This document shows positions 14,209 to 37,444 of a DNA stretch of 44,970 nucleotides, in pieces. A model generated the notes under the pieces. It made no database searches. It saw nothing but the letters and a program-made list of their open reading frames with translations, and was not told where the DNA came from. The first letter of the stretch is position 1, and the number at the start of each line of letters is the position of its first letter. This DNA is from Gemmatimonadota bacterium (GTDB lineage: Bacteria; Gemmatimonadota; Gemmatimonadetes; Longimicrobiales; RSA9). The stretch covers positions 1-44,970 of the forward strand of contig JADGQX010000007.1 in NCBI GenBank assembly GCA_017881445.1, in the 5' to 3' direction. The translations under genes and the position numbers were made by a program.

Positions 14209-15207
14209 TCAGGCGTGATGGATCACGCGCGCTCCGGGCACCACGGCGGCGACGTGAGCGTTCGCGATCGCCGGGTCCAGGCCGAAACTGGCCGTTCCAC
14301 CCGCATCCGCGTCCATGCATGTGGGCGCCTCCACGGTCACGCTGTGCTCGCCTGTGACGCGGGGCTCGCCGGTGCGCGGGTCGATCAGGTGGCTGTAGCG
14401 CCGCCCGCGGTACTCGAAGAACCGGCGATAGTCCCCCGAGGTGGCCACGGCCCGGTCCGTCAGCTGGAAACGCGCGATGATGCCATTGGGGTCGGTGGGC
14501 GACTGCACGCCGATCTCCCACGCGTCGCCGCGCTCCGAGTGGCCCATGGCGTAGAGATCCCCGCCGGCCACCACCACCGCGTCCCGGATTCCACGCGCGC
14601 GCAAGGCGTCGATGGCACGGTCCACGGCGTAGCCTTTGGCGATGCCGCCCAGGTCCAGCGCGACCTCGTCCGAGTGGTAGAACAGCACGGTTTCGCCCGC
14701 CCGGCGGCCGACCTCGAGGTGACGGTAGAGCCCGGCGCCGGCGAAGCGCTTCATCTCGCCCGACGACGGCGGAGTCTGCCGGTGCTCGACGTCCCAGAGT
14801 GCGGTGACCTCGCCCAGACACGGATCGAACGCGCCCTGGGTTCGTTCGGCCCAGTGCAGCGCACGCTCGACCACGCAGGCGGTCGAGGCGCTGATCACCA
14901 CCGCCCGCTTCGCCGCCTGCTGGTTCGCCACTCCCACCTCGGAGTAGCGGCTGAATCGCGTCATGGTGCGGTCGACGCGGCGCAGCTCCTCGATGGCGGC
15001 GTCGATGGCGGCCTCGGCCACAGCGACGTCGCCGTGGACGACTTTGATCTCGGCAATGGTGCTCATGACGGGCACCGTGCGCGTCACCAGGCGCTGCCTG
15101 GCGGAGAGCGCCCGGGGCAGCGACGCCACCACCAGGCCGCCGATGCCCAGGCCCAGGAAGGTCCGCCGGTCGAGGGGCCCGTGCCCCGAAGGATCACGCA
15201 GGATCAT
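14209..15207 (-). CDS. apbE: FAD:protein FMN transferase ApbE (rnf1 operon)
   Basis: A 332-residue Tat-exported flavin transferase. It moves FMN from FAD onto a Thr of target proteins outside the membrane; the expected targets are RnfG1 and RnfD1 of the same operon. The N-terminus carries a twin-arginine signal (LDRRTFLGLGIGGLVVASL, Arg14-15). Family motifs are VMSTIAEI, TMTRFSRYSEV, ALDLGGIAKGYAVDRA, VVAGGDLYAMG, and the C-terminal SHLIDPRTGEP with HSVTVEAPTCMDAD, which binds Mg and FAD in the family. The ATG is preceded by GGAG seven bases upstream. It is the last gene of the operon, 13 bp after rnfA1. It has a clear paralogue, apbE2, in the rnf2 operon. Confidence 0.92.
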   Translation of the reverse strand: MILRDPSGHGPLDRRTFLGLGIGGLVVASLPRALSARQRLVTRTVPVMSTIAEIKVVHGDVAVAEAAIDAAIEELRRVDRTMTRFSRYSEVGVANQQAAKRAVVISASTACVVERALHWAERTQGAFDPCLGEVTALWDVEHRQTPPSSGEMKRFAGAGLYRHLEVGRRAGETVLFYHSDEVALDLGGIAKGYAVDRAIDALRARGIRDAVVVAGGDLYAMGHSERGDAWEIGVQSPTDPNGIIARFQLTDRAVATSGDYRRFFEYRGRRYSHLIDPRTGEPRVTGEHSVTVEAPTCMDADAGGTASFGLDPAIANAHVAAVVPGARVIHHA

Positions 15208-15220
15208 GGTTCGACTCCGG

Positions 15221-15796
15221 TCACGAGCTGAACAGCCCGGCAAAGCCCATGAAGGCCAGCGACAGGCTTCCGGCAACGATGAGTATGATGCCCATGCCCT
15301 TGGCGAGGGCGGGAATGTCGGCGAGCTCGAGCTGCTCGCGGATGGACGCCATCAGGATCAGCGCCAGCGTCAGGCCCAGCCCCGCGCCCAGGGCGAAGAC
15401 CAGCCCCTCCACCAGGTTGTAGGCCCGGTTGGTCTGGAAGATCGCCAGCGCCAGGATCGCGCAGTTCGTGGTGATCAGCGGCAGGTAGATGCCCATCTCC
15501 CGGAAGAGCGTGGGGCTCGTTTTCTTGATGAGCATCTCCACGATCTGCACCAGCGCCGCGATGGTCACGATGAAGGAGATGAGCTGCAGGTACGGCGCCG
15601 AGCCCAGGATGAACCGGTTGAGGATCCAGACCACGAACGAGGTCATGATCAGCACGAAGGTATCGGCCGCCCCCATCCGGATCGCGGTGCCGATCTTGTT
15701 CGAGATGCCGAAGAACGCGCACAGCCCCAGGAACAGGGTGAGCGTGAAGTTGTTCACCAGCATCGAGGAGATGAAGATCCAGAACAGCTGCTTCAT
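15221..15796 (-). CDS. rnfA: Rnf complex subunit RnfA (copy 1)
   Basis: A 191-residue inner-membrane protein with six hydrophobic segments. RnfA and RnfE form an inverted-topology pair that holds an iron-sulfur centre in the membrane; the usual Cys are Cys26 (LFLGLCAFFG) and Cys112 (LITTNCAIL). Other family segments are VNNFTLTLFLG, RMGAADTFVL and SPTLFREMGIYLPL. Its ATG overlaps the rnfE1 stop (ATGA), and GGAGGTGACC gives a strong SD. It is closely similar to rnfA2. Confidence 0.95.
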   Translation of the reverse strand: MKQLFWIFISSMLVNNFTLTLFLGLCAFFGISNKIGTAIRMGAADTFVLIMTSFVVWILNRFILGSAPYLQLISFIVTIAALVQIVEMLIKKTSPTLFREMGIYLPLITTNCAILALAIFQTNRAYNLVEGLVFALGAGLGLTLALILMASIREQLELADIPALAKGMGIILIVAGSLSLAFMGFAGLFSS

Positions 15797-16473
15797 ACGG
15801 TCACCTCCTCGCGCGTGCTGCGCTCCACCTTCAGCGTGGCCCGGTTCGGCCAGACCCGCGGCTTGGTCCCCGCCGCCTTGCGCGAGCGATACCAGCCGAA
15901 GATCAGCAGCCACATGCCCAGCGTGAAGAAGCCGCCGGGAGGCAGGATCATGAAGACCCACGGCTCCCAGTGCATGCCCAGCACGTGATAGCCCAGCAGC
16001 GTGCCGTTCCCCAGCAGCTCCCGGAACCCGCTCATCATGAGCATCACGATGATGAAGCCGAAGCCGGAGCCCACGCCATCGAGTGCGGCGCGCCAGACCG
16101 TGTTCTTGGCCGCGAACGCCTCCGCCCGTCCCAGGATGATGCAGTTGACCACGATCAGCGCGATGAAGGCCCCCAACGCCTTGTGGATCCCGGGCACCGT
16201 CGCCGCCAGCACGTAGTCCACGATGGTCACGAACGTGGCGATGATGATGATGTAGGCCGAAATGCGGACCTCGTTCGGGATGAAGCGCCGGAACGCCGAT
16301 ATCAACGTGCTCGAGCCCACCAGCACGAAGAACGTGGCCAGCCCCATGGCGATCCCGTTGGCCAGCGTGTTCGTCACCGCCAGCGTCGGGCACAGCCCCA
16401 GCAGCTGGACGAACACAGGATTGTTCTTCCAGATCGGGTTGATCAGGTCCTCGCGGGCCATGGTCGGTTTCAT
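15793..16473 (-). CDS. rnfE: Rnf complex subunit RnfE (copy 1)
   Basis: A 226-residue inner-membrane protein, partner of RnfA. The family N-terminus is NPIWKNNPVFVQLLGLCPTL with Cys28; the second cluster Cys is Cys111 (ALIVVNCIIL). Also seen are IPNEVRISAYIIIIA, KALGAFIAL and FMILPPGGFF. The C-terminus is a basic cytoplasmic tail. ATG 16473 overlaps the rnfG1 stop and has GGGAGG seven bases upstream. Together with RnfA it should carry electrons across the membrane core of the ferredoxin:NAD+ oxidoreductase. Confidence 0.95.
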   Translation of the reverse strand: MKPTMAREDLINPIWKNNPVFVQLLGLCPTLAVTNTLANGIAMGLATFFVLVGSSTLISAFRRFIPNEVRISAYIIIIATFVTIVDYVLAATVPGIHKALGAFIALIVVNCIILGRAEAFAAKNTVWRAALDGVGSGFGFIIVMLMMSGFRELLGNGTLLGYHVLGMHWEPWVFMILPPGGFFTLGMWLLIFGWYRSRKAAGTKPRVWPNRATLKVERSTREEVTV

Positions 16474-17162
16474 GGACGGCCTCCCTGGCGATAGCCCTTC
16501 AGCAGCGGCCCGATCTTCTCCAGCCGGTGGTTGATCGTGTTGATCACGGCCCGCGAGGAGATGGTCGCGCCCGTGATCATGTCCACCTGCGCCTTGTCAC
16601 TGTGCGCCGTGCCCCGCTTCACGCCCTTGATGGGCGACAGCGCGCCCGCGAAGCCGTTCAGGAAGGCCGAGTCCTTCTCGATCTTGTCGCCCAGACCGGG
16701 AGTCTCCTTCTCCTCCAGCACCTTCATGCCCGTGATCCGGCCGGTGGCCGGCACGTAGCCGAAGATCAGGCTGATGATGTCGTTGAACCCCGGCTCACCT
16801 GCGGTCACCGCGAACCCCTTGGCGTTGCCGCTCTCGTCCAGCCCGAGATAGACCCGGTCCAGCCCGGTGGAATCCACCCCCGCAGGCAGCGAGTCCACCA
16901 GCTGGCCGCGGTAGACGAAGATGGTCCGCACCGTCGCCGGCGCAGCCAGCACCTCCGTGATGGCCGCACCAATCGTCTCCGCCCGGTGCTGGTCGATCTT
17001 CGGCTTGGTGCTCGTGTACGCCATCACGATGAGCGCGCCCGCGACGGCGGCGAAGATCGTGAGCGAGGCGATCAGGTTGAGCGGCTTCACTTCCGGCGGC
17101 GTGCCCGGAAGCGGCGTGACCGAGGCCGAGGACTCGGGCGGAGTCGTGTGATCGTGGCTCAT
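16470..17162 (-). CDS. rnfG: Rnf complex flavoprotein subunit RnfG (copy 1)
   Basis: A 230-residue protein with one N-terminal membrane anchor (about residues 29-50) and a periplasmic FMN domain. The ApbE target motif D194-MITGAT-IS is intact, and Thr200 is the predicted FMN attachment site. The segment GFAVTAGEPGFNDIISLIFG and the GLGDKIEKD loop are typical. ATG 17162 has GGAGG seven bases upstream; the longer frame reading from 18104 overlaps rnfD1 and is not coding. It overlaps rnfD1 and rnfE1 by four bases each. The N-terminal 25 or so residues are Pro/Ser-rich and variable. Confidence 0.95.
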   Translation of the reverse strand: MSHDHTTPPESSASVTPLPGTPPEVKPLNLIASLTIFAAVAGALIVMAYTSTKPKIDQHRAETIGAAITEVLAAPATVRTIFVYRGQLVDSLPAGVDSTGLDRVYLGLDESGNAKGFAVTAGEPGFNDIISLIFGYVPATGRITGMKVLEEKETPGLGDKIEKDSAFLNGFAGALSPIKGVKRGTAHSDKAQVDMITGATISSRAVINTINHRLEKIGPLLKGYRQGGRP

Positions 17163-18181
17163 GGCGTCGCCTCCTTCCCGCCCCGCACCCGCTTCTTCCG
17201 CGTCGTGCCGAACACGCGCGGCTGGGTGCCCCGGTTGATGAAGGGAACGAAGGCGTTCATGATCAGGATCGCGTACATCACGCCCTCCGGCAGCCCGCCC
17301 CAGATCCGGATCAGCACCACCAGCACGCCCACGCCGGCCCCGAAGATCCAGGCGCCGCGGGGGGTCACCGGCGAGGTCACCATGTCGGTGGCCATGTAGA
17401 CCGCGCCCAGGATCAGCCCGCCCGAGAACACCATGAAGACCGCGTCCGGGTAGCGCGGCGACGCCAGGTGCAGCGCGGTGGCGAAGAGCGCGGCCGTCCC
17501 GAGCACCGCCACCGGGATTCGCCAGTTGAGGTAGCCCTTCCACGCCAGGTAGGCGCCGCAGAGCAGGATCACCAGGCCCGCCGTCTCGCCCAGCGAGCCC
17601 CCGGTGCTGCCCACCATGAGCGGCCAGGCCGCGGTCCCGGTGTGCTCGAACTTCATCATGCCCAGCGGCGTCGCGGCCGTGATGGTGTCGGTCGGGTGCA
17701 TGAAGGGCCAGGCGAAATTGGAGGCGTAGACCGTCGTCCACCCCTGGGCCACCTTCGGCCAGGTCGTGATGGCCGTGGGGAAGGCCGCCTGCAGGAAGGC
17801 TCGCCCCAGCAGCGCGGGGTTGAAAACGTTCTGCCCCAGGCCGCCGAAGATCAGCTTGCCGAAGCCAATGGCGAAGGCGCCGCCAATGAACGCCATCCAC
17901 AGCGGGAACCCCGCGGGCAGCGTGAGCCCCAGCAGCACGCCGGTGATGGCGGCGGAGCCGTCGCGTACCGAGCGCGCCTTGCCCAGCCAGCCCTCCAGGG
18001 CGAGGGCCCCGGCCGTGCTTGCCGCGATCACCAGCAGCGCGCCCAGGCCGAAGAAGTAGAGTGCCGCCAGCACCACCGGCACCAGCGTCGCCAGCACCGT
18101 CCACATGATCCGGGGCGTGGTGTCCGGCGACTTCAGGTGCGGCGAGGCCGCCAGCTCGAGACGGATTGTCTGCGTGCTCAT
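17159..18181 (-). CDS. rnfD: Rnf complex flavoprotein subunit RnfD (copy 1)
   Basis: A 340-residue inner-membrane protein (about nine to ten hydrophobic segments) carrying covalent FMN. Family segments are SPHLKSPDTTPRIMW, DGSAAITGVLLGLTLP, GGLGQNVFNPALLGRAFL and WGGLPEGVMYAILIMNAFVP. The FMN site is ITAATPLG with Thr171. The start ATG overlaps the rnfC1 stop. The frame is open far upstream through the whole of rnfC1 into rnfB1, because rnfB1 lacks its stop; the RnfD start is fixed by homology and by the overlap with rnfC1. Confidence 0.94.
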   Translation of the reverse strand: MSTQTIRLELAASPHLKSPDTTPRIMWTVLATLVPVVLAALYFFGLGALLVIAASTAGALALEGWLGKARSVRDGSAAITGVLLGLTLPAGFPLWMAFIGGAFAIGFGKLIFGGLGQNVFNPALLGRAFLQAAFPTAITTWPKVAQGWTTVYASNFAWPFMHPTDTITAATPLGMMKFEHTGTAAWPLMVGSTGGSLGETAGLVILLCGAYLAWKGYLNWRIPVAVLGTAALFATALHLASPRYPDAVFMVFSGGLILGAVYMATDMVTSPVTPRGAWIFGAGVGVLVVLIRIWGGLPEGVMYAILIMNAFVPFINRGTQPRVFGTTRKKRVRGGKEATP

Positions 18182-19503
18182 GCGACCACCTTGCTGCGCG
18201 CCTTCTTCAGCGCCGTCTTGCTCAGGGCGAACATCTGCGAGAGCGGGATCGCCGACGGACAGACGTACGAGCACGCCCCGCAGAGCATGCAGTCGGCCAG
18301 GTGCATCGACTCCATTTCCTCGTAGCGACCCGCCTGCGCGTGCAGGCCGAGCATGGACGGGTTCAAGAAGACCGGGCACGCTTCCAGGCAGCTCCCGCAG
18401 CGAATGCACGGCAGCGTCTCGAAGCGGGGCGTGTCCCTGCGCGTCAGCACGATCACGCCCGTCGTCCCCTTCGTCACCGGCACGTCCAGGTTCGGCTGCG
18501 CCGTGCCCATCATCGGGCCACCCAGCACCACCTCCGTCGCGTCCGCCGACACCCCGCCGCAGAACTCCAGGATGTCGCGCACCTTCGTGCCCACGGGGAT
18601 GATCAGGTTGGACGGGCGACGCACGCCGGGGCCGGAAACGGTGACGATCCGCTCCACCAACGGCAGCCCGGTCTCGAACACTTCGGCGATGGTGGCGATG
18701 GAGCCCACGTTCTGCACCACCACCCCCACGTTCATCGGCAGCTTCCCCGACGGCACCTCGCGACCCGTCACGGCGTGGATCAGCATCTTCTCCGCGCCCT
18801 GGGGATACTTGACCGTGAGCGGCAGGATGATGACGTCCAGGTCCGGCGGGAGAGTCGCGCGCAGCCGCTCGATGGCGTCCGGCTTGTTGCGCTCCACCCC
18901 GATCACCGCCCGCTTCACGCCCAGCGCCCTCATCATGATCCGCACGCCGAAGTGCACGCGCTCCGGGTACTCGACCATGGTGCGGTGGTCGGTGGTGAGG
19001 TAGGGCTCGCACTCGGCGCCGTTGACGATCAGCGACTCGAGATGGATGTCCTTGGGAGGCGCCAGCTTGACGTGCGTCGGGAAGGCCGCGCCGCCCAGCC
19101 CCACCACGCCCGCGTCCTGCACCGCCTTCACCACCTCCGGCGGCGTCAGGCCGTTCCAGTCCGGGACCATCCGGGGGCGGGGGATCTGCGGGTTGAACGG
19201 GTCGACCGCGATGCGGATCGCGTCGGAGAGCGTGCCATCGGGATGCGGCCACAGGCCGATCGCTTTGACGACGCCGGCAGCCGACGCATGCACGGGCGAC
19301 GAGACGAACCCGTCCGCTTCGGCGAGGACGTCGCCTCGCTGCACACGGTCGCCCACACGGACAACCGGACGCGCCGGCTTGCCCGCATGCTGCCGCAGCG
19401 GCAGCACCACCTCGGCCGCGTAAGGCATCCGGCGCAGCGGCACCGCGGCCGTCAGCGCCTTCGAATCCGGTGGATGCACACCGTGGCGAAACGTCGATCT
19501 CAT
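18178..19503 (-). CDS. rnfC: Rnf complex NADH-binding subunit RnfC (copy 1)
   Basis: A 441-residue peripheral subunit that exchanges electrons with NAD(H). It shows the N-terminal RnfC barrel sandwich domain (GVHPPDSKALT), the FMN/NADH region VVGLGGAAFPTHVKL and IVNGAECEPYLTTDHRTM, a SLBB-like domain, and two [4Fe-4S] motifs: C366/C369/C372/C376 and C405/C408/C411/C415. The Cys-poor C-terminal repeats of E. coli RsxC are absent. The start is taken as ATG 19503, with GGAG five bases upstream; the in-frame GTG just before it is too close to the SD. Cluster spacing is identical in rnfC2. Confidence 0.95.
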   Translation of the reverse strand: MRSTFRHGVHPPDSKALTAAVPLRRMPYAAEVVLPLRQHAGKPARPVVRVGDRVQRGDVLAEADGFVSSPVHASAAGVVKAIGLWPHPDGTLSDAIRIAVDPFNPQIPRPRMVPDWNGLTPPEVVKAVQDAGVVGLGGAAFPTHVKLAPPKDIHLESLIVNGAECEPYLTTDHRTMVEYPERVHFGVRIMMRALGVKRAVIGVERNKPDAIERLRATLPPDLDVIILPLTVKYPQGAEKMLIHAVTGREVPSGKLPMNVGVVVQNVGSIATIAEVFETGLPLVERIVTVSGPGVRRPSNLIIPVGTKVRDILEFCGGVSADATEVVLGGPMMGTAQPNLDVPVTKGTTGVIVLTRRDTPRFETLPCIRCGSCLEACPVFLNPSMLGLHAQAGRYEEMESMHLADCMLCGACSYVCPSAIPLSQMFALSKTALKKARSKVVA

Positions 19504-19518
19504 CACGTCTCCAGGCTT

Positions 19519-20386
19519 CTAGCCCCCAGAACGTTCCCGCGGGGACGAGCGGCCGCGCGGCAACGGGCGCGTCCCCGAACTGCGCCCCCTCCACCCAGGC
19601 GATCGCCCCCGTGGGGCACCGCTCGATCGCCTTCCGACTCTCCAGCTCGATCTTCTCGAAGTCGATTACCGCGAGACCCCGCTCCATCCGGACGAGCCCC
19701 GGCGCATCCGCCGCGCACCGGCCGCAGGCGTTGCACGCCACACTGCACACGTCCGTCGCCGCTTCACCCTCCAGCAGGTTGCGGCACTGCACCAGCAGGT
19801 GCGCGTCCAGCGGCAGGATCGTGAACAGCTCCAGCGGACAGGCGTCCACGCAGTCGCCGCAGGCAATGCACTTCTCCACCACCACCACGGGCAGGCCGGT
19901 CTCGCTCATCAAGATGGCGTCGAAGTCGCAGGCGACGGCGCAGTCCGCGTAGCCCAGGCACCCCCACGCGCACGCCTTGCCGCCTCCGCTCACCGCCACG
20001 GCCGCGGCGCAGCTTTGGACCCCGTAGTAGTCCGCACGCCGCGCCGCCACGTCCGACCCGCCCGCGCACAGCAGCCGCGCCACCTTCCGGTCCGCCTCGC
20101 CCGCGGCCACGCCCAGGTAGTCCGCCACGTCCTGCCGCTGGTCCTCCGTCATCACGTTGCAGCCCGCCGGCTGCGCCGCCCCACCGACCACCGCTTCCGC
20201 GAAATTGCGGCAGCCGGGAAAGCCGCACGCCCCGCAGTTGTTGTTGGGCAGCAGCCCCGCCACCCCGTCCACCCGCGGGTCCTCCCATACGCGCAGCTTG
20301 CTGTTCGCCAGCGCCACCAGCGTCCCGAACGTCAGGCCCAGACCGCCCAGGATCGCGACCGAGCCGAGGATCACCCCCGCAGTCAT
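19519..20386 (-). CDS. rnfB: Rnf complex iron-sulfur subunit RnfB (copy 1), stop codon out of frame
   Basis: Accepts electrons from ferredoxin. An N-terminal membrane helix (residues about 4-26) is followed by the [4Fe-4S] domain C51/C54/C59/C76 (CGACGFPGC) and two ferredoxin-type motifs (CIACGDCVDACP and CNACGRC with partner Cys). Homology ends near CPTGAIAWVEGAQF. The expected stop is missing: the frame runs on through all of rnfC1 in another phase and joins the rnfD1 frame. A TAG sits at 19,521-19,519, just past a run of five G (19,527-19,523). With four G the frame would end ...PAGTFWG-stop, 15 bp before rnfC1, giving about 288 residues, as in copy 2 (283). The end given here is that TAG, one base out of frame. 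ATG 20386 has a GGAGGGAGC SD. Gene callers could lose this gene. Confidence 0.85.
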
Positions 20387-20479
20387 GCTCCCTCCCCCGG
20401 ACATGGCCCCTGGCTACGACGCCTGCGCGCCTCATCCCGCCTGGCCGCGCCACGCCGTCTGCCGATGCAGAGAGCGGCC

Positions 20480-20499
20480 GGCGTGAGATCTCTCACGCC
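20480..20499. repeat. Perfect inverted repeat in the rnfB1 leader
   Basis: GGCGTGAGA, two bases, TCTCACGCC, about 95 bp before the rnfB1 start. It could be an operator or a leader hairpin of the rnf1 message. The rest of the interval 20,500-20,810 has no gene with coding support and no riboswitch that I can identify. Confidence 0.5.
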
Positions 20500-20814
20500 A
20501 GCCGCCCGCACGCTGCTCCGGACTCCCTCCGCAATCTTCACGGACTGGAGCCCCATTCCACTCCCCGCCACCGGGCCGCTTTCGCCGCAACCGGCGCGGT
20601 GGAGGACCTTTGGCACGAACTCGCCGTCCCCGCCGCAGTACTTCGGTGCGATCGGGTCCGCCTGGAGTCTCGCCATGAGATCACCCGCTTCGCCGGATCT
20701 GCTACGCGGCCCGTGGCCGCAACCGAAAGAGTCTTTGGAGTCTCAGTCTAGAGGGTCCGCACCCCCCCGGGCGTAGGGTGAAACATGATTTCCGGAGGGG
20801 ATTCCTCCCATCCC

Positions 20815-20863
20815 CAATCGCAGCCCCGCGTGGTGAATATGGAGGCCATATGCTGCGATTGTA
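20815..20863 (-). promoter_or_regulatory. Nested palindromes with a -10-like box upstream of the rnf1 operon
   Basis: CAATCGCAG (20,815-20,823) and its exact complement CTGCGATTG (20,853-20,861) flank a second palindrome ATATGG-AGG-CCATAT (20,838-20,852). On the minus strand TACAAT at 20,863-20,858 resembles a -10 box, in a local AT-rich patch directly after the terminator of the upstream operon. No good -35 is seen. This is the best candidate for the rnf1 promoter/operator, about 470 bp before rnfB1. Confidence 0.4.
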
Positions 20864-20880
20864 GATGCATTGAACACCAG

Positions 20881-20916
20881 AAAATGGCGCCCGCTTCCTG
20901 CGGGAAGCGGGTGCGC
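20881..20916 (-). terminator. Intrinsic terminator of the kor-nifJ-rnf2 operon
   Basis: On the minus strand CCCGCTTCC, four bases, GGAAGCGGG, extended by GCG/CGC pairs, then CATTTTCT. It lies 12 bp after the stop of the last gene of the operon, and separates it from the rnf1 operon. Confidence 0.75.
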
Positions 20917-20927
20917 GCCTGCCAGGC

Positions 20928-21155
20928 TCAGTTGCGGCTCGGCCCCGGGGGCAGCCCGCCGCGGTGGCGCTCGGCCGCCGCCTTCATTTCGGCGCTGGGG
21001 ACGTCGAAGAGCGGGCAGAGCTCGCCGGTGCACCTGGCGCCGTGGTCGAGGCAGACCGGGGCGCCGCCGGGAGCGTCGAGGGGGGCGCCGTCGTCGCCGA
21101 CCAGGACCTGGATCTCGCGATCGCAGGCGGAGCAGTAGTACTTGCGGGTCCGCAT
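20928..21155 (-). CDS. Small CxxC metal-binding protein (CLxxGxRCTGxxCPxF family), last gene of the operon
   Basis: A 75-residue soluble protein with Cys at 8, 11, 35, 42 and 47. The C8-SA-C11 knuckle plus C35/C42/C47 could bind zinc or a small iron-sulfur centre. The core CLDHGARCTGELCPLF is shared with the 125-residue protein at 37,067-37,444 (CLELGERCTGDMCPIF), and both begin MRT-[RK]-[KR]. I do not recognise the family. ATG 21155 begins one base after the apbE2 stop, with GGAG inside the apbE2 end as SD, so it is translated with the Rnf maturation genes. A role in cofactor maturation or regulation of the complex is inferred only from context. Confidence 0.78.
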   Translation of the reverse strand: MRTRKYYCSACDREIQVLVGDDGAPLDAPGGAPVCLDHGARCTGELCPLFDVPSAEMKAAAERHRGGLPPGPSRN

Positions 21156-21156
21156 G

Positions 21157-22161
21157 TCAGGTCTCCAGGTCCAGGAGCTTGGCGCTGGCGCACAGGCGGG
21201 CCAGCACGGGCGAGACATCGGCTCTGGCCAGGCCGTAAACGGTGCCGCATGCGACGTCCGCATGCATGCAGGTCGGGGCCGCGATGGTGAGGCTGTGGAC
21301 GGGCGTCAGGCGCGGGGCGCCGGTGACGGGGTCCATGATGTGGTGGTAGCGCCGGCCGTGGTACTCGAAGTACTGGATGTAATCGCCCGAGGTGGCGACG
21401 GCGCCGTCGCTCAGGGGGAAGGTGCGGGCGATGCGGCCGGGATTGCGCGGGTCCTGGATGCCGACCTCCCAGTCGTCGCCGCGCTCGGAGTGGCCCATGG
21501 CGTAGAGGTCGCCGCCGGCGTTGACGATGGCGTCCTTGAAGCCGCGGACGCGGATGGCGTCGATGGCGCGGTCGACGGCGTAGCCCTTGGCGATCCCGCC
21601 CAGGTCGAGATGGACGTCGCTCGAGTGGAAGTAGAGGATTGGCTTGCCGGCGCGGCGCTCGAGCTCGACGGCGCGGTACAGGCTGCGCCCGGCCAGGCGT
21701 TCGACCTCGTGCTGCGGCGGCGGCGTGGTGCGGTGCTTGACGTCCCAGAGCGCGCAGACCTTGCCGACGGCGGGGTCCCAGCGGCCGGCCACCCCTTCGG
21801 ACCAGCGCAGCGCCTCGGCTACCACGCGGGCGGTCTCGCCGCCGATCTCCACGGGACGGCCGTGCGCTTCCAGGTTGGCGCGGCCGATGTCCGAGAGACC
21901 GGTGAAGCGGCTCATCGTCCGGTTGACCGTGTACAGCTCCTCGAGGGCGGCGTCGATGGCCGCCTGGGCGCGGGCCTCGTCGGAGGAGACGATGCCGATC
22001 TCGGCGATGGTGCCCATGACCGGGACCGTGCGCCGGATCAGGCGGGGCCTGGCGAACAGGCCACGCGGCAGGACGCTGCCGACGACGAAGGCGCCGACGC
22101 CGAGGGTGATGAACCTGCGCCGGGTGGTGTTGAGCTCCCGGCCTTCCTCAGAGCTGTTCAT
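21157..22161 (-). CDS. apbE: FAD:protein FMN transferase ApbE (rnf2 operon)
   Basis: A 334-residue flavin transferase, paralogue of the copy at 14,209. The Tat-type signal TTRRRFITLGVGAFVVGSVL is followed by PVMGTIAEIGIV, TMSRFTGLSDIG, HLDLGGIAKGYAVDRAID, VNAGGDLYAMGHSERGD and HHIMDPVTGAPR. The expected substrates are Thr203 of RnfG2 and Thr190 of RnfD2. It overlaps the end of the 54-codon NqrM-like gene by 14 bases. Having a second apbE beside each Rnf suggests that each complex is matured by its own transferase, though one could serve both. Confidence 0.92.
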   Translation of the reverse strand: MNSSEEGRELNTTRRRFITLGVGAFVVGSVLPRGLFARPRLIRRTVPVMGTIAEIGIVSSDEARAQAAIDAALEELYTVNRTMSRFTGLSDIGRANLEAHGRPVEIGGETARVVAEALRWSEGVAGRWDPAVGKVCALWDVKHRTTPPPQHEVERLAGRSLYRAVELERRAGKPILYFHSSDVHLDLGGIAKGYAVDRAIDAIRVRGFKDAIVNAGGDLYAMGHSERGDDWEVGIQDPRNPGRIARTFPLSDGAVATSGDYIQYFEYHGRRYHHIMDPVTGAPRLTPVHSLTIAAPTCMHADVACGTVYGLARADVSPVLARLCASAKLLDLET

Positions 22162-22312
22162 GGTGCGACTCCGTCAGGCTGCAGTTTCCATCCTTGGGAC
22201 ATGCGCCGCAGTTGCCGGTCCCCGAGCAACCGCCCGACCTGGGGCGGACGAAGAGGACGAAGCCGACGATCAGGGCGATGCAGAGCCCGATGCCGAAGAG
22301 GGTGTGGATCAT
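22148..22312 (-). CDS. 54-residue NqrM-like single-pass Cys-rich membrane protein
   Basis: Its ATG overlaps the rnfA2 stop (ATGA), and its TGA lies inside the start of apbE2, so it is clearly part of the operon. One membrane helix (residues about 4-22, LFGIGLCIALIVGFVLFV) is followed by Arg and then a Cys cluster GGCSGTGNCGACPKDGNC (C29, C35, C38, C44). Layout and size resemble NqrM, which is needed to mature Na+-NQR by supplying iron for the Cys-ligated centre in NqrD/NqrE. RnfE and RnfA are the homologues of those two subunits, and rnfE2-rnfA2 lie directly upstream. The Cys spacing differs from classical NqrM and also recalls FeoB-associated Cys-rich proteins. The rnf1 operon has no counterpart. 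Confidence 0.75.
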   Translation of the reverse strand: MIHTLFGIGLCIALIVGFVLFVRPRSGGCSGTGNCGACPKDGNCSLTESHHEQL

Positions 22313-22887
22313 GAGCTGAAGAGCCCTCCGAAGCCCATGAAGGCCAGCGAGATACAGCCGGCGATGATCAGGACGATGCCCATGCTGCGGGCGAAGATGG
22401 GCGAGTCGGACAGCTCGACGCGCTCGCGGATGGAGCCCATGAGCGTCAGCGCCAGCGTGAGGCCGAGCCCCGCGCCCAGCGCGAAGGCCACGCCCTGGAT
22501 GAAGTTGTAGCCGCGGTTCGTCTGGAAGAGTGCGAGCCCCAGGATGGCGCAGTTGGTGGTGATCAGCGGGAGGTAGATCCCGAGCTCCCGGAAGAGCGTG
22601 GGGCTGACCTTCTTGACGAACATCTCGACGATCTGCACCAGCGCCGCGATCACCACGATGAAGGCGATGATGCGCAGGTAGGGCGCGTAGCCGAGGACGA
22701 AGCGGTTGAGGAACCAGGCCGCGACGGAGGTAAGCACCAGGACGAAGGTGTCGGCGGCGCCCATGCGCAGCGCCGTGGACACCTTGCCCGTGACGCCCAG
22801 GAAGGAGCAGAGTCCCAGGAAGAGCGTCAGGGTGAAGTTGTTCACCAGGGCCGCCGAGACGAGAATCCAGCTCAGGTCCTTGAGCAT
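22309..22887 (-). CDS. rnfA: Rnf complex subunit RnfA (copy 2)
   Basis: 192 residues, six hydrophobic segments. Cluster-ligand candidates are Cys27 (LFLGLCSFLG) and Cys113 (ITTNCAIL). VNNFTLTLFLGL, RMGAADTFVLVL and SPTLFRELGIYLPL are nearly the same as in copy 1. The start shares one base with the rnfE2 stop (TGATG). Its stop overlaps the start of the NqrM-like gene, which links maturation factor and subunit by translational coupling. Confidence 0.95.
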   Translation of the reverse strand: MLKDLSWILVSAALVNNFTLTLFLGLCSFLGVTGKVSTALRMGAADTFVLVLTSVAAWFLNRFVLGYAPYLRIIAFIVVIAALVQIVEMFVKKVSPTLFRELGIYLPLITTNCAILGLALFQTNRGYNFIQGVAFALGAGLGLTLALTLMGSIRERVELSDSPIFARSMGIVLIIAGCISLAFMGFGGLFSS

Positions 22888-23546
22888 CAGGCGGCCACCT
22901 TTCGGCGGGTGACCACGACGGGCCACAGGCGGACGCGGCGGTGCCCCTTCTTGCGGGCCTTCAGGTAGCTCAGGAAGAGCAGCCAGAAGCCGAGGGCCAG
23001 GAAGCCTCCGGGCGGCAGCATGAAGATGAGCATGGGCTGGAAGTGGGGCCCGAACAGGTGGATGCCGGCGAAGGTGCCGTTGCCCAGGATCTCGCGCACC
23101 GCGGAGACGCACGATAGGCCGAGGGTGAAGCCGATCCCGGTACCGAGCGAATCGAGCACGGAGCGGCCGACGGGCCGCTTCTGGGCGAATGCCTCCATGC
23201 GCCCGAGCAGCACGCAGTTGGCCACGATGAGCGCGATGAAGGCGCCCAATGCCTTGTAGATCGTCGGCGCCAGCGCAGCCACGAACATGTCGGCCAGCGA
23301 GGTGAACGCCGCGATCACCAGGATCGAAGTCGTGATACGGACCTCGTTCGGCACCGATTTCCGGAAGAGCGAGACGAAGAAGGCGGAGCCGACCAGCACG
23401 AACGTGGTGGTGACGCCCATGGAGAAGCCGTTGATGACCGTGTTGGTGACGGCCATGGTGGGGCACATCCCGAGCATCTGGACGAAGGTCGGGTTGTTCC
23501 GCCAGATCGGGTCGACGAAGTCTTCGATCGCGCGCGTGGCCGTCAC
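22887..23546 (-). CDS. rnfE: Rnf complex subunit RnfE (copy 2)
   Basis: 219 residues from a GTG start that overlaps the rnfG2 stop (GTGA), with GGGAGGTGC upstream. The family N-terminus is DPIWRNNPTFVQMLGMCPTM with Cys28; the second Cys is Cys111 (LIVANCVLL). VPNEVRITTSILVIAA and FMLPPGGFLALGFW are typical. The longer frame reaching back to 24,140 reads through rnfG2 in another phase and is not coding. The C-terminus is strongly basic (KARKKGHRRVRLW). Confidence 0.95.
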   Translation of the reverse strand: MTATRAIEDFVDPIWRNNPTFVQMLGMCPTMAVTNTVINGFSMGVTTTFVLVGSAFFVSLFRKSVPNEVRITTSILVIAAFTSLADMFVAALAPTIYKALGAFIALIVANCVLLGRMEAFAQKRPVGRSVLDSLGTGIGFTLGLSCVSAVREILGNGTFAGIHLFGPHFQPMLIFMLPPGGFLALGFWLLFLSYLKARKKGHRRVRLWPVVVTRRKVAA

Positions 23547-24250
23547 CGCGCACCTCCCTGCTGCTGCGTGTAATTCTGGAGCGCGGGGGCCAGCGCCTGG
23601 ACCCGCTTGTTGATGATGGCGATGACCGCCCGCGAGGAGATGGTCGCGCCGGTGATCATGTCCACGGCGTGGGCATTGCCCTGGCCGCGGCCGGCTTTGA
23701 CCCCCTCGATCGGTGTCCTGGGACCCGCGAACTCCTGCACGAAGGCAAGGTCCTTCTCGATCCTGTCGCCGATGCCCGGCGTCTCGCGCTGGTCCACCAG
23801 CTTCATGCCGATGAGCTGCTCCGTGGCCGGGTCGTAGCCGAAAATCAGCTTCAGGTTGTCCTGGAACCCCGGCCCGCTCGCCGGAATGGCGAAGCCGATC
23901 GCCTTGCCCGACTGGTCGTAGCCGACGAAGACCCGGTCGAGCTTGGCCGGATCCGCGCCGGCCGGCGCCGTGGCCGTCAGCGTGCCACCGCTCACGTAGA
24001 GGGGCGTGAAGTGGTCGGGGCCGCGGAGCACCTCGCGCACGGCCGCCTCGGTGAGCATGGCCTGGTGCGCGTCGATGCGCGGCTGCGTCCACTCGAAGGC
24101 CAGCGCGAGCGCGAGCCCGCAGGCCGCGCCGAAGGAGCAAAGGATGAGGATCAGCCTGGAGGGCCGGACATCGGGAGGCGGAGGCGCGTCGGCCGCCATC
24201 TCCGTACTGAGCGAGGCCGATTTCGGGGCGTGGCCGCCGGACACGCTCAT
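23543..24250 (-). CDS. rnfG: Rnf complex flavoprotein subunit RnfG (copy 2)
   Basis: 235 residues: a Ser/Pro-rich N-terminus, a membrane anchor at about 32-52, and the FMN-binding domain. The ApbE motif D197-MITGAT-IS is intact, with Thr203 the predicted FMN site. GFQDNLKLIFGYDPATEQ and ETPGIGDRIEKD match copy 1. ATG 24250 has AGGAGGTGG upstream and overlaps the rnfD2 stop by four bases. Confidence 0.95.
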   Translation of the reverse strand: MSVSGGHAPKSASLSTEMAADAPPPPDVRPSRLILILCSFGAACGLALALAFEWTQPRIDAHQAMLTEAAVREVLRGPDHFTPLYVSGGTLTATAPAGADPAKLDRVFVGYDQSGKAIGFAIPASGPGFQDNLKLIFGYDPATEQLIGMKLVDQRETPGIGDRIEKDLAFVQEFAGPRTPIEGVKAGRGQGNAHAVDMITGATISSRAVIAIINKRVQALAPALQNYTQQQGGAR

Positions 24251-25320
24251 GGCGCCACCTCCTGCCGCCGGCCGCGAGCCGCCGTGCCGAAGACGCGCGG
24301 CTGCGTGGCGCGGTTGATGAACGGCACCATGCAGTTGCCCAGCAGGATCGCGTACATCACGCCCTCGGGCAGGCCGCCCCAGAAGCGGATCAGCACGACC
24401 AGCGCGCCGATGCCGGCGCCGAAGATCCAGCGCCCGGGGTTGGTGACCGGCGCGGTGACCGGGTCGGTGGCCATGTAGAAGGCGCCCAGCATGATGCCAC
24501 CGGAAAAGACCGTGAAGAGCGCACCCGGGTAGCGCGCCGGGACCGCGCCGTGGGCCAGGGCGGCGAACAGCGCCGCGGCGCCCAGCATGGCTGCAGGAAT
24601 GCGCCAGTTCACGTAGCCCTTCCAGATGAGGAACAGCCCGCAGGCGAGGATGACCAGCCCCGCGGTCTCCCCCAGCGAGCCGCCGGTGCTGCCCAGCATG
24701 AGGTTCAGCAGGGGCGTGCCCGCGTGGTCGAACTTCATGAGCCCGAGCGGCGTGGCGCTGGTGATGGCGTCCACCTTCGGCACCTGCATGAAGGGCCACG
24801 CCAGGGTGCTGCGGTGGATCGTCCAGAAATGGCCGCCGGGCGCGGTGAAGCTGGTGATGGCCGTGGGCATGGAGCCCTGCAGGAAGGCGCGGCCGAGCAG
24901 CGCCGGGTTGAACGGGTTCTGGCCCAGACCGCCGAAGAGCGTCTTGCCGATGGCAATGCCGAAGGCGCCGCCCAGCGCCGCCATCCAGAGCGGGAACGCG
25001 GGCGGCAGGCACAGCCCCAGCAGGATGCCCGTGATCACGGCCGAGCCATCGCGCAGGGCGCCGGGCTTGCCGAACGCCTTCTCCACTGCGATGCAGCCCA
25101 TCGTGGCGGCCACGACGACGAGCAGCGCACTGATGCCGAAGAAATAGGCGGACGCGGCCACGATCGGGACCATGGAGGCGATCACGGTCCACATGATCGT
25201 CGTGGTCGTTTCCCGCGACTTGATGTGCGGAGCCGCCGCGATCACCAGGCGATCTTCCGCCTCGGCCTCGGTGGTGTCGCCCGCATCCTCGGGCAGGGGG
25301 CGGTCGAAGATCGTGCTCAT
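24247..25320 (-). CDS. rnfD: Rnf complex flavoprotein subunit RnfD (copy 2)
   Basis: 357 residues, about 17 longer than copy 1 because of an acidic N-terminal extension (PEDAGDTTEAEAEDR). The family core starts at APHIKSRETTTTIMW. DGSAVITGILLGLCLP, GGLGQNPFNPALLGRAFLQ and FWGGLPEGVMYAILLGN are conserved. The FMN site is AITSATPLG with Thr190. It overlaps rnfC2 and rnfG2 by four bases at each end. Confidence 0.95.
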   Translation of the reverse strand: MSTIFDRPLPEDAGDTTEAEAEDRLVIAAAPHIKSRETTTTIMWTVIASMVPIVAASAYFFGISALLVVVAATMGCIAVEKAFGKPGALRDGSAVITGILLGLCLPPAFPLWMAALGGAFGIAIGKTLFGGLGQNPFNPALLGRAFLQGSMPTAITSFTAPGGHFWTIHRSTLAWPFMQVPKVDAITSATPLGLMKFDHAGTPLLNLMLGSTGGSLGETAGLVILACGLFLIWKGYVNWRIPAAMLGAAALFAALAHGAVPARYPGALFTVFSGGIMLGAFYMATDPVTAPVTNPGRWIFGAGIGALVVLIRFWGGLPEGVMYAILLGNCMVPFINRATQPRVFGTAARGRRQEVAP

Positions 25321-26639
25321 GCCGCCGCCTCTTTCCGCCGCCGAACCGCGCCCTTGCTCAGCGAGAACATCTGCGAGAGCGGCAGGCCGGAGGGACAGAC
25401 GTAGGAGCAGGAGCCGCAGAGCATGCAGTCCGCCAGGTGCGCCGCGACCATCTCGTCGTGGCGGCCGAGCTGCGCCAGCGCGGCCAGCTTCTCCGGGTTG
25501 AGGAAGACCGGACACGCCTCCAGGCAGCGGCCGCAGTGGATGCACGGCAGCGCCGGCTTCCTCACGATCTCATCGAGCGTCAGGGCGATGATCCCGGTCG
25601 TCCCCTTCACCACGGGCGCATCCAGGTTCGGCTGGACCACGCCCATCATGGGGCCGCCGAACACCACCTCGCGGGCCGCCGGCGTGAGGCCGCCGCAGTA
25701 CTCGAGCACGTCCCGGATGCGCGCGCCCACCGGCACGATCAGGTTGGCCGGCTTCGCCACCCCCAGGCCGCTGACGGTCACGATGCGCTCGACCAGCGGC
25801 AGGCCGGTCTCGAAGACCTCGGCGATGCAGGCCGCGGAACCGACGTTCTGCACCAGCACCCCCAGGTGCACCGGCAGCTTGCCCGAGGGTACCTCCTGCC
25901 CCGTCACCGATCGGATCAGCATCTTCTCCGCGCCCTGCGGATACTTCACGGTCAGGGGCAGGACCGTGATGTCGAGGCCCGCGGGCACGGCGCGCCGGAG
26001 CGCCTCGATAGCGTCGGGCTTGTTCTTCTCGACGCCGATCACCGCCTTCGGCACGTCCAGCGACGCCATCATGATCTGCACGCCGAAGATCACCCGCTCC
26101 GGGAACTCCACCATGGTCCGGTGGTCGCTGGTCAGGTACGGCTCGCACTCGGCGCCGTTGATGACCAGCGTGTGGACGGTGGTGCCCTCGGGGGGGACCA
26201 GCTTCACGTGGGTGGGGAAGGCCGCGCCGCCCAGGCCGACCACGCCGGCCCGGCGCACCGCTTCCACCACCTCCTCGCGGGAAAGCCCCTGCCATTCCGG
26301 GACCATCCGGGGTCGGGGTATCTGCGGAGAGTAGCGGTCCACCGCGAGGAGCACCGCCTCCTGCATGTTGCCGTCGGGATGCGGGTAAAGGCCGACCGCC
26401 TTGATCACCCCGGCCGCCGAGGCGTGGATGGGTGAGGACACCCACCCATCCGCCTCCGCGATCACGTCACCACGCTGCACCTGCTGGCCCAGCCGGACCC
26501 GCAGCTTCGCGGGCTTCCCCGCATGCTGCTTCAGCGGCAGCACCAGCTCCTCCGGATACGGCATCCGCCTGAGCGGAACCTGCGCGGTCAACTCCTTGGC
26601 GTCCGGCGGGTGGACGCCGTGTTGGAACCCGAATCTCAT
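25317..26639 (-). CDS. rnfC: Rnf complex NADH-binding subunit RnfC (copy 2)
   Basis: 440 residues with the same layout as copy 1: GVHPPDAKELTA, VVGLGGAAFPTHVKL, INGAECEPYLTSDHRTM, and two [4Fe-4S] motifs at C366/C369/C372/C376 and C405/C408/C411/C415. The start at 26,639 is 37 bp after the nifJ stop. Here nifJ is inserted between rnfB2 and rnfC2, whereas in the rnf1 operon the two genes are adjacent. Confidence 0.95.
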   Translation of the reverse strand: MRFGFQHGVHPPDAKELTAQVPLRRMPYPEELVLPLKQHAGKPAKLRVRLGQQVQRGDVIAEADGWVSSPIHASAAGVIKAVGLYPHPDGNMQEAVLLAVDRYSPQIPRPRMVPEWQGLSREEVVEAVRRAGVVGLGGAAFPTHVKLVPPEGTTVHTLVINGAECEPYLTSDHRTMVEFPERVIFGVQIMMASLDVPKAVIGVEKNKPDAIEALRRAVPAGLDITVLPLTVKYPQGAEKMLIRSVTGQEVPSGKLPVHLGVLVQNVGSAACIAEVFETGLPLVERIVTVSGLGVAKPANLIVPVGARIRDVLEYCGGLTPAAREVVFGGPMMGVVQPNLDAPVVKGTTGIIALTLDEIVRKPALPCIHCGRCLEACPVFLNPEKLAALAQLGRHDEMVAAHLADCMLCGSCSYVCPSGLPLSQMFSLSKGAVRRRKEAAA

Positions 26640-26676: not shown

Positions 26677-29600
26677 TCAATTGAACGGCTTCGCCCGCTC
26701 GGTCCACTTGGCCAGGTCCTTCTCCTTGGGGTTGATCGGCGTCCCGGGGTGGATGATCCCCGCCGGGCAACGCTCCGCCGCCTGGACCATCTGGGCGAAC
26801 GTCCCCGCCTTGATGTCCTTGATGACGGCCTGCTTGGCCGGGTTGTACGTGAACAGCTTCTTGTTCAGGTTCGTGCACTCGTTGCAGGTCGTGCAGCGCT
26901 CCGACTCGATGTAGGCCTCCATGCCCATCTCGTCGGCCACGGCCGTTGCGGTCGACGCCGCTGCCGCGGGCGCCGGCGCAACCGCGGGCGCGGCAGCAGC
27001 CACGGGCGCGGCGGCCGGCGCTGGCGGGGCGCTGGGGCTCGCGGGCCCCGCGGCCGCGGGCGGTGTCCCATCGGCTCCAGGCGTCTGCACGCCCGGCACG
27101 GCCACCGACTCCTCCACCTTCTTCAGCAGCTCCGCCACCGTCTGGGTCCCGCCCGTGGTGGCGCGCAGCAGCCCTTCGGCAATGCTGCGAGCGATGATCT
27201 GCGGGTACTCGGCCTTGAGCTGGATCAGCTTGGCCTCGTACTCGACCCTCAGGTCGTCGGCGCGGGTGTCGAACTCGCCCTGGAGCTCGTCGGCGATCGC
27301 GTCCCGGACCGTCTGCGCCGGCTTGACGCCCGCCAGCTCGAGCAGCTGCGACCAGAAGCTCAGCCGGTCCTCGGCCAGCAGGACCATCTCCCGCGAGACC
27401 GACATGCGGCCGAGGTGCTTCTCCGCGTCCAGCACCTGAATGAAGGGGAACTTGCCCTCACGCTCGTCCGCCGGCAGCGCCATGTAGTCGTGGAACACCA
27501 CCATGTCCTCGTTCCACTCCTCGGGCTTGACCTTCTTGAAGTGCTTCTTGAAGCGCACCTCGGTGGCGGCCCAGTCGGCGATCGTCATGGGCAGCTCGAT
27601 CGTCTGCTTCTCGCCGGCGTCGTCCACGTACTCCAGGTCGTAGGTCGGCCAGATCTCGTCCAGTGACGGGTTGCCGTCCAGCGACAGGCACTCGGCCACG
27701 CTGGTGCCCGCGTCCGGATCGTAGCGCAGGATCGGGAAGGCCCGGCTCTCCATGGCCATGCGCGCGGCCCGGGGCGCGAAGTCGTCCGCCAGGCCGTGCT
27801 CGACCGGGCAGGGCGTGTAGATGTTGAAGATCGCTGGCCGCCGCACCTGCAGCCCACGCAGCACGCCCGAGAGCAGGTGGGCGGGCGTGGCCTGCGACGT
27901 CTGCAGCACGTAGGTGCCGCGGTGCGCCAGCGCGATGAGCGCGATCTCCTTGCGCACTTCCTGCTTGCCGTGCTGCGCCGTGCCGTAGCCCGACATGTCG
28001 GCCACCTGGCCCGTGAAGCCGCTGGTGCAGGCCTGGCCACCCGTGTTCGAGTAGACCTGCGTGTCCAGGATCATGGCCCGGATCGGCTTCCCCGACGCCA
28101 TCATGCGCGAGAGGTTCTGGAACCCGATGTCGAACATGGCGCCGTCACCGCCGATCGCCATGATCGGCGGGCAGAGGCCGAACTCCACGTCGTCGAACTG
28201 GCGCCAGTCGAAGGTCTTGAAGAACGGCTCGTGCTCGGTCGCGTCGTAGCCGTCCTCGGCCAGGAGCTTGGCGCGGCGGATGGCGACGAAGGCGTCGGCC
28301 ATCTTGCGCATCTGCCCCTCGAACAAGCCGACCGCCACCGAGGGCGAGTCCTGGAACAGGTGGTTGGCCCAGGGGAACGGATACGGGTTGAAGGGGAACG
28401 TGCTCGCCCACACCGAGGAGCAGCCCGTGCTGTTGGCGATGCCCAGCGGGGCGCGACCGCGACCGCTGGGTCCCTCCACGTAGCGCCAGCGCAGGTCCTT
28501 CAGCTGGTGCAGCGCCCGGTTCAGCAGGCCGAGCTGCTCGTGGGCGGCCTCGTCCACCGGCACCTGCACCGCCGACACGGCCGTGGCGGCGGCGTCGAGG
28601 TCCGCTCCGGCGGCGAGGAGCGAGCGCGCCTTGCCATCGAGAACGCCGATCAGCTCGTCCAGGTGAGCGACTAGCTTCGCCACCCGGGGCTGCATCAGCG
28701 CTTCGACGGCGGATACGACCAGGTGGACCGAGGTCTTCTCGCCGCAGCCCATGCACGCGCCGTCCCCGCCCGCCATCGAGCGGTAGGTGTCCTTCTTGAG
28801 GAGCAGCATCGGCAGCACGCCGATCCCTTCCTCGATGTTCGAGACCGAGATGAAGCGGGTGTCGGTGTCCGGCAGCTCCTGCCAGAACTCCCAGTTCCTG
28901 CGCAGCTTCTCGACCGTCTTCTCTTCCTGCTTCACCGTCACCAGCGCCTGCTCGGGGCAGACCGCCACGCAGACGTTGCAGCCCTTGCACGCTTCCGGAT
29001 TGATGGTGATCGACAGCAGCCCGCCCGAGCCCGCCACCTTGGACTCCGGGCCGTCGAAGAAGGGCGCCGTGCGCGTGAACGGGAATTCAGCGACCTGCTC
29101 GATGGCCAGCTTGAACTCCTCGTCCAGCGACTTCCGCTTCTGTGCGTCATAGCCCAGCTTGTCCGCCACGCCCGTGTAGGCCGCCTGCAGCACGGGGCCG
29201 AAGCTGCTGAAGCGCCCGGCCTTGACCTGCTTCGTGACCTCCTTGGCCACGTGCTTCGAGACCTGCTTGGCCAGGTTCAGCGGGCGGCCCGCCTTGACGC
29301 CCGCCACGCGCACCGCCGTCTCGACCACCTGCTCGGGCGTGTTGACCAGCCCGGGAATGGCCGCATCGGGGCACTGCGTCCAGCACTGGTTGCAGCCCGT
29401 GCACTTCTCCGCCACGAACTCCGGCACCTCCATGCGGATCCCGGTCATGTCCCGGAAGGCGCTGCTGACGGCCGGCATCACGGACACGGCCGCGAACGGG
29501 TCGGCGATCGGGTCCATGCCCGTGGCGTAGGAGGTGCAGACCTGCTCCCAGAAGCGACCCGGGTTGCCGAAGCCCTGCTCGGCATCCGGCAGGTCCATGA

Positions 29601-31851: not shown

Positions 31852-31856
31852 GTCGT

Positions 31857-32708
31857 TCAGCTCCCCAGCCGGGCGGACGGTTCGTCCATTCCGGCGAATT
31901 GCGCTCCCTCGACCCAGGCGATGGCGCCCGTCGGACAGCGCTTGATGGCTTCGATGCTCTCGAGATGAACCAGGTCGTAGTCGATCACCGGCAGCCGCCC
32001 GCCCATCTGCATGGTGATGAGCCCCGGCTCCGCGTCCGCGGCGCAGCGCCCGCAGGCGTTGCAGGCCACCGCGCAGGCGGCCGTCGCGACCACCCCTTCC
32101 AGCAGGCTCTTGCACTGCACCAGCAGGTGCGCTTCCAGCGGCAGGATGGTGAAGAGCCCCTGCGGGCAGGCGCTGACGCAGTCGCCGCAGGCCGTGCACA
32201 TGTCGGGGTCGACGAGCGGCAACCCCGTTCTGCTCATGTAGATGGCGTCAAAGCTGCAGGCCACGGCGCAATCGGCCATGCCCACGCAGCCCCAGGAGCA
32301 GGCCTTGCCCCCGCCGCTCACCGCCAGGGCGGCGGCGCAGCTCTCGACGCCCCGGTACTCCACCCGGCGCTGGGCCACGTCGGTCCCGCCCGCGCACAGC
32401 AGCCGGGCGACCCGCTTCTGCGCCTCACCCGCATCGATGCCCAGGAATGCCGCTATGGACTCGCGCCCATCTTCCGAAGACACCGTGCACGAGGCCGGCT
32501 TGGCCCGCCGCAGCACGATCTGCTCGGCCAGTCCACGACAGCCCGGAAAACCGCACGCCCCGCAGTTGGCGCCGGGCAGCATGGCCACGATCTCGTCGAT
32601 ACGCGGATCCTCCCAGACCCGCAACTTGATACTGCACAGCGATATAACGATGGCCAGGACAGCGGAAATGCCTGACAGAATCCCGACCCCGATCAGGATC
32701 GTTTGCAC
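31857..32708 (-). CDS. rnfB: Rnf complex iron-sulfur subunit RnfB (copy 2)
   Basis: 283 residues: membrane helix (about 4-25), [4Fe-4S] domain C49/C52/C57/C74 (CGACGFPGC), and two ferredoxin motifs (CTACGDCVSACPQG and CNACGRC). A shared RnfB segment, CGGTDVAQRR-like with GGGKACSWGCVGMADCAVAC, adds more Cys. It ends WVEGAQFAGMDEPSARLGS and has its own stop, unlike copy 1. It is placed directly before nifJ, with a five-base gap, so the ferredoxin-accepting Rnf subunit is made next to the enzyme that reduces ferredoxin. Confidence 0.95.
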   Translation of the reverse strand: MQTILIGVGILSGISAVLAIVISLCSIKLRVWEDPRIDEIVAMLPGANCGACGFPGCRGLAEQIVLRRAKPASCTVSSEDGRESIAAFLGIDAGEAQKRVARLLCAGGTDVAQRRVEYRGVESCAAALAVSGGGKACSWGCVGMADCAVACSFDAIYMSRTGLPLVDPDMCTACGDCVSACPQGLFTILPLEAHLLVQCKSLLEGVVATAACAVACNACGRCAADAEPGLITMQMGGRLPVIDYDLVHLESIEAIKRCPTGAIAWVEGAQFAGMDEPSARLGS

Positions 32709-37066: not shown

Positions 37067-37444
37067 ATGAGGACCAAGCGAGCCTTCTGCTCCGCGCGCG
37101 ACCAGGATATCACGGTGGCGTGGCCGGACGCTCCGCTGCACCCGGGACAGGCGATGGCTGCGGAGGCGCCGGAGCCGCTATGCCTGGAGCTGGGGGAGCG
37201 GTGCACGGGGGACATGTGCCCGATCTTCCGGATTCCGCGGGTGGAGCTGGCGGTGCGGCTGGCGCAGGCGGGGCTGGACGGACCGGACTCCTTGCGCACG
37301 CGCGAGGGGGATTGCCTGGGCTGCGGCCGACACGTGGAGCTGAAGATCGTGGACCCGGGGTACGGCTGGTGTCCGGACTGCCACACGGTGCAGCCGTTGA
37401 GCGTGCCGCCGGAGGAAGAGGACAAGGCGCTGGCTGGCGCGTAG
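37067..37444 (+). CDS. CxxC metal-binding protein with added zinc ribbon, paralogue of the 20,928 gene
   Basis: 125 residues in two parts. Residues 1-60 match the small protein at 20,928-21,155: both start MRT with CSA at 8-10 and share CLELGERCTGDMCPIF (C39, C46, C51). The second Cys of the first knuckle is replaced by Arg11. Residues about 80-110 add a clean zinc ribbon, C83-LG-C86 and C102-PD-C105, absent from the shorter protein. No signal peptide. ATG 37067 has GGGAG six bases upstream. It is divergent from korA, so the operon and this gene may share control. The function is unknown; a metal- or redox-sensing role is one possibility. Confidence 0.75.
   Translation: MRTKRAFCSARDQDITVAWPDAPLHPGQAMAAEAPEPLCLELGERCTGDMCPIFRIPRVELAVRLAQAGLDGPDSLRTREGDCLGCGRHVELKIVDPGYGWCPDCHTVQPLSVPPEEEDKALAGA

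Follow-up and report, generated by a model that had tools for sequence, protein, structure and literature searches.

The intramembrane [2Fe-2S] centre of NQR apparently requires NqrM, according to those sections of an RNF/NQR review that deal with this protein (PMC12174285), and NqrM has been predicted to deliver iron to NqrD/NqrE (PMC6209661). The same sections describe ApbE as flavinylating subunits of both Rnf and NQR, and they name no factor for the RnfA/RnfE cluster (PMC12174285). RseC of E. coli is a two-helix membrane protein; its cytoplasmic C-x5-C-x2-C-x5-C motif can bind an Fe-S cluster that is oxygen-sensitive, and the protein is needed together with Rsx/Rnf and ApbE (PMC11729352). 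R. capsulatus RnfF is described as part RseC-like and part ApbE-like (PMC11729352), and a Z. mobilis gene tentatively designated rnfF/rseC shows cofitness with rnf and is needed for anaerobic growth (PMC10746277). In V. cholerae and A. woodii, however, assembly of Rnf in the absence of RseC has been reported (PMC11729352), which leaves it unproven that Rnf generally needs a factor of this type. We found no paper on an Rnf-linked small Cys gene of the kind described here.

A small gene between rnfA and apbE

The DNA analysed, referred to here as the window, is a stretch of 44,970 nucleotides from a Gemmatimonadota genome of 4.7 Mb that contains two rnf operons. Operon 2 has the order rnfB-PFOR-C-D-G-E-A-[small gene]-apbE2-[zinc-ribbon gene]. 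Its small gene, of 54 codons, occupies positions 22148–22312 on the minus strand, and its ATG overlaps the stop codon of rnfA2 as ATGA, with 4 nt shared. The upstream neighbour, to which it is thereby translationally coupled, is rnfA2 (22309–22887, minus strand; PF02508 Rnf-Nqr, 8.5e-56), whose product retains, on reading of its sequence, the cluster Cys motifs GLCSF and TNCAIL. The 3′ end of the small gene reaches 14 nt into apbE2 (21157–22161, minus strand; PF02424 ApbE, 6.3e-66), so that this flavin transferase gene starts inside it. GC content at codon positions 1, 2 and 3 of the small gene is 0.55, 0.51 and 0.85, which is coding-like in a GC-rich genome.

A preliminary description of this DNA had proposed an overlooked 54-codon gene inside the Rnf operon, coupled to rnfA2, overlapping apbE2 and encoding a membrane helix followed by C29, C35, C38 and C44. 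All of these features were borne out, and conservation in relatives, presented below, excludes a chance origin. We regard it as virtually certain that 22148–22312 is a real gene.

Conservation in the Gemmatimonadota

A single-sequence search of 61 relatives with the window's protein gave noise and nothing convincing, because only the helix and cysteines are conserved; a search from a single member found 16 loci, all of them in Gemmatimonadota. Relatives were recognised by synteny, by reading the DNA downstream of rnfA in RNF-bearing Gemmatimonadota genomes. Apart from six genomes of one family (f11), considered below, 61 genomes of the phylum carry an RNF-type RnfA, and in one of these (G243) the contig stops 81 nt past rnfA. 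The other 60, which are the Rnf genomes of this class that could be checked, all carry the small gene. The relatives' frames encode one transmembrane helix and then nearly always four cysteines, and they lie almost always between rnfA and apbE.

We then scored 64 related loci with a script that accepts a frame encoding a transmembrane helix and at least three cysteines, with its start −25 to +110 nt from the rnfA stop codon. Such a frame was present at 58 of the 64 loci; dinucleotide shuffling produced it in 2 of 1280 cases, and none of 64 antisense sequences contained it. Four of the six misses are second rnf copies (operon 1 of the window and those of genomes G133, G147 and G242); the fifth (L037) is a copy with a truncated start, and in the sixth, Gemmatirosa, the gene sits elsewhere in the operon. 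The rearranged operon of Gemmatirosa kalamazoonensis (plasmid NZ_CP007129.1) reads rnfC-D-G-[small gene]-apbE-rnfE-rnfA, and the small gene still adjoins apbE. A frame located after rnfA in this organism (L093, −4 to 134) was discarded because it is a different gene read out of frame; the genuine copy is that preceding apbE. Finally, pS exceeded pN in all 91 pairs of members compared, which indicates purifying selection on the gene. The preliminary description had named a survey of small frames after rnfA as a check, and absence of the frame or of its four cysteines from related rnf operons as evidence against the proposal; both proved to be conserved.

A membrane helix followed by a four-cysteine tail

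The product of the small gene is MIHTLFGIGLCIALIVGFVLFVRPRSGGCSGTGNCGACPKDGNCSLTESHHEQL, in which Cys 11 lies within the helix and Cys 29, 35, 38 and 44 follow it. The helix (residues 4–22, codons at 22247–22303, minus strand) is predicted from hydropathy and positive-inside bias to be oriented N-out/C-in. Among 48 members, one Persicobacter candidate included, there is one strong helix, the count of K/R is 0.10 before it and 1.67 after it, and the Cys tail is therefore predicted to be cytoplasmic. The cytoplasm-facing motif so predicted in the window member is C-x5-C-x2-C-x5-C (22181–22228, minus strand). Exactly four cysteines follow the helix in 44 of the 48 members, and two members have only three in the tail. 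Spacings vary: 3-2-3 (15 members), 2-8-2 (six) and 3-2-5 (four) occur along with others, the window member having 5-2-5. Such varied spacing could also suit zinc or mononuclear iron. The AlphaFold2 model contains a helix at residues 2–22 (pLDDT about 90), an unstructured tail (pLDDT 52–58) and no metal; a disordered tail is as would be expected for a metal site modelled in its apo state.

Comparison with NqrM and a proposed role in Rnf assembly

The small protein resembles NqrM in having a single N-terminal helix (predicted here), basic residues after it and four tail cysteines, and in being encoded with apbE beside a homologous pump, whose homologous [2Fe-2S] centre would be its target. It differs in that NqrM belongs to nqr operons and the small protein to rnf operons. 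In the NQR operons of Gemmatimonadota, which run nqrE-nqrF-apbE-NqrM, the motif GSCGG...C-x-C...C is invariant in seven NqrM proteins; it is absent from the rnf-linked family. The preliminary description was right to distinguish the Cys spacing from that of classical NqrM. The NqrM (DUF539) profile search that had been put forward as a check gave no match: PF04400 detected none of 46 members at E ≤ 1, and none in the window's own genome. On these sequence criteria the small protein is not an NqrM member. In profile–profile alignment (hhalign) the family scored 32 against NqrM, compared with 13.9 ± 3.3 for shuffles, and it also scored 32 against the FeoB-associated family; the alignment covers mainly the helix. 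Because the two scores are equal and derive mostly from the helix, we file the protein under neither family, and the name RnfM-like is suggested for its probable work and not its descent.

Rnf operons with the small gene and nqr operons with NqrM thus each combine apbE with a small Cys membrane protein of their own, one per pump type. We consider the small protein very probably to be an Rnf accessory protein. That it delivers iron or a cluster to RnfA/RnfE, as the counterpart of NqrM and standing in for RseC, is the reading we favour, with moderate confidence. The protein would be produced along with RnfA and ApbE to act during assembly, its N-terminal helix anchoring it in the membrane with the tail in the cytoplasm, where the four tail cysteines may bind iron, either as an ion or within an Fe-S cluster or precursor. 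While ApbE attaches FMN to RnfG and RnfD, the small protein, positioned beside nascent RnfA/RnfE, would pass iron or Fe-S to their common intramembrane [2Fe-2S] site, and so might fill the place held by the Fe-S protein RseC in other Rnf bacteria. Of the original proposal of an NqrM-like Rnf maturation factor, the conserved, Rnf-dedicated small Cys membrane protein thus stands strongly and the NqrM-like role stands as the best inference, whereas membership of the NqrM family does not stand.

Distribution relative to RseC

RseC (PF04246) was found in six of 298 Gemmatimonadota genomes, the very six of family f11 that have Rnf but lack the small gene. Within the window's class, none of the 60 Rnf genomes, the window's own included, was found to have it. 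The distributions of the small gene and RseC are complementary, and this, which the preliminary description did not bring up, is the most informative lead that we obtained. The contrast within the phylum is confined to one clade, so that it possibly reflects one evolutionary event. In this RseC-bearing clade (loci L097–L100), a DUF1844-like small protein, named by eye, is encoded after rnfA.

Beyond the Gemmatimonadota, the comparison covered E. coli and records from a plasmid collection. No small gene was seen in the rnf stretches of E. coli, Bacteroides, Acetoanaerobium and Fusobacterium; RseC is present in the Bacteroides, Acetoanaerobium and Fusobacterium records, and E. coli also matches among the control genomes. 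On a plasmid of Persicobacter psychrovividus (Bacteroidota), a frame of 62 residues (L172, 7654–7842, plus strand) encodes a transmembrane helix and C-x2-C-x-C-x3-C, lies 78 nt past rnfA and is flanked by short palindromic repeats; no RseC was found on this plasmid, the only part of the genome covered. The frame is a possible cross-phylum member, as a single case with weak context.

Like RseC, the small protein is a membrane protein with cytoplasmic cysteines, as predicted here, and is tied to Rnf and ApbE. The two differ in that RseC has its Cys domain first and two helices, whereas the small protein has its helix first, a single helix and only 54 residues, and no member matched PF04246. It might nevertheless replace RseC in a way other than cluster insertion: as an Fe-S protein with a docking, redox or regulatory function, it would hand electrons from Rnf on to a partner or monitor oxygen or redox state for the complex. 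We think this less probable, though it is the likeliest of the alternatives. The mutually exclusive distribution would be accounted for, the small gene directly precedes apbE much as R. capsulatus RnfF is reported to join an RseC-like part to ApbE, and the window member shares C-x5-C-x2-C-x5-C with E. coli RseC. The shared spacing is, however, peculiar to the window member, in which Cys 35, 38 and 44 form C-x2-C-x5-C; most relatives have C-x2-C-x3-C, and 3-2-3 is the commonest spacing of the family. The lack of a PF04246 match and the different number and order of helices also argue against it, and presence at only one of two rnf copies is more readily explained by a catalytic helper than by a redox partner of each complex.

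RseC has long been classed as a SoxR-reducing factor. A more general scheme can be entertained, tentatively, in which pumps of the RNF/NQR type generally use ApbE plus one membrane Cys protein to put the intramembrane [2Fe-2S] centre in place: NqrM in NQR, RseC or the N-terminal part of RnfF in most RNFs, and the small family in the RNFs of Gemmatimonadota and perhaps marine Bacteroidota. RseC would then be an assembly factor, and the three versions would be unrelated or highly diverged. With a cultured carrier, Gemmatirosa kalamazoonensis, and an either-or relationship with RseC, the small gene makes it testable whether Rnf needs a Cys helper and whether NqrM, RseC and the small protein are interchangeable. 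Rnf supplies power to many anaerobes as well as to acetogenesis and nitrogen fixation, and making it in a foreign host requires the right helpers.

A small gene at one of two rnf operons

The tandem rnf operons of the window lie at 14209–26639 (minus strand), each with its own apbE, and the small gene is present at only one of them. Operon 1 has the order rnfB-C-D-G-E-A-apbE1 and lacks it. Counting the window's own genome, the small gene accompanies just one locus in each of four genomes with two rnf loci (G000, G133, G147 and G242). We therefore favour a trans-acting helper over a subunit. A structural or electron-transferring Rnf subunit might be expected from the coupling to rnfA at most loci and from the near-universal presence of the gene in the class, and four cysteines might form a redox centre; but the operons without the gene, the varying Cys spacing and the absence of such a subunit from the Rnf structures summarised in the corresponding sections of a review (PMC12174285) make this unlikely.

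Comparison with FeoB-associated proteins

The preliminary description had also suggested a check against FeoB-associated Cys-rich proteins. Their iron-linked family, PF12669, gave the nearest profile; it matched 20 of 46 members weakly (best 4.4e-5) and the window member not at all. In the genome search the rnf-linked matches scored about 19–23 bits, below the curated cut-off of 27 bits, save for the Gemmatirosa copy (G122:C3:578977, located where its rnf operon lies), which alone just reached it with 27.1 bits. NCBIfam profile scans of one member and of all members returned nothing. FeoB-associated proteins are likewise tiny, with one helix and then a Cys-rich GC.x.C.x.C tail; the true members in this phylum, however, follow feoB and have a tail of the C-x3-C-x-C type. 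As to ancestry, sequence comparison points only slightly more towards the FeoB-associated family than towards NqrM.

If the protein is a branch of this family, it could serve in the membrane as an all-purpose carrier of iron or zinc, or else assist ApbE, and not be a factor for the RnfA/RnfE cluster. The sub-threshold matches, the similar TM-then-GC.x.C pattern of the phylum's true PF12669 members and the pairing of the small gene with apbE even in the rearranged Gemmatirosa operon are compatible with such a role. We nevertheless judge it improbable: every member used comes from an rnf operon and none adjoins feoB, and since apbE1 of operon 1 has no small gene and the apbE of NQR operons is accompanied by NqrM, apbE alone does not require the small gene.

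The remaining explanation, a chance frame in GC-rich DNA, which is rich in open frames, would fit the failure of single-sequence searches to find a clear relative, and is refuted to the point of negligible probability by the excess over shuffled DNA, the uniform pS > pN and the retention of cysteines while the remaining sequence diverges.

Other genes of the locus

A second overlooked small gene (20928–21155, minus strand) starts just past the apbE2 stop codon and encodes a soluble, zinc-ribbon-like protein of 75 residues with the motif CSACDR...CLDHG..CTGELCP. No Pfam family matched the product, and its motif was seen in about 25 Gemmatimonadota rnf loci; the gene is possibly a further member of the Rnf accessory module. 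A longer relative of this protein, with the motif CSARDQ...CLELGERCTGDMCP, is encoded at 37067–37444 (plus strand).

In operon 2, a gene like that of pyruvate:ferredoxin oxidoreductase (PFOR), named by eye, lies between rnfB2 and rnfC2 (26677–31860, minus strand), and a ferredoxin producer (PFOR-like) and a ferredoxin user (Rnf) may thus be co-transcribed. Gemmatirosa (L148) likewise has a PFOR-like gene ahead of rnfC, and so does Persicobacter (L172), where Pfam detects TPP and Fer4 domains.
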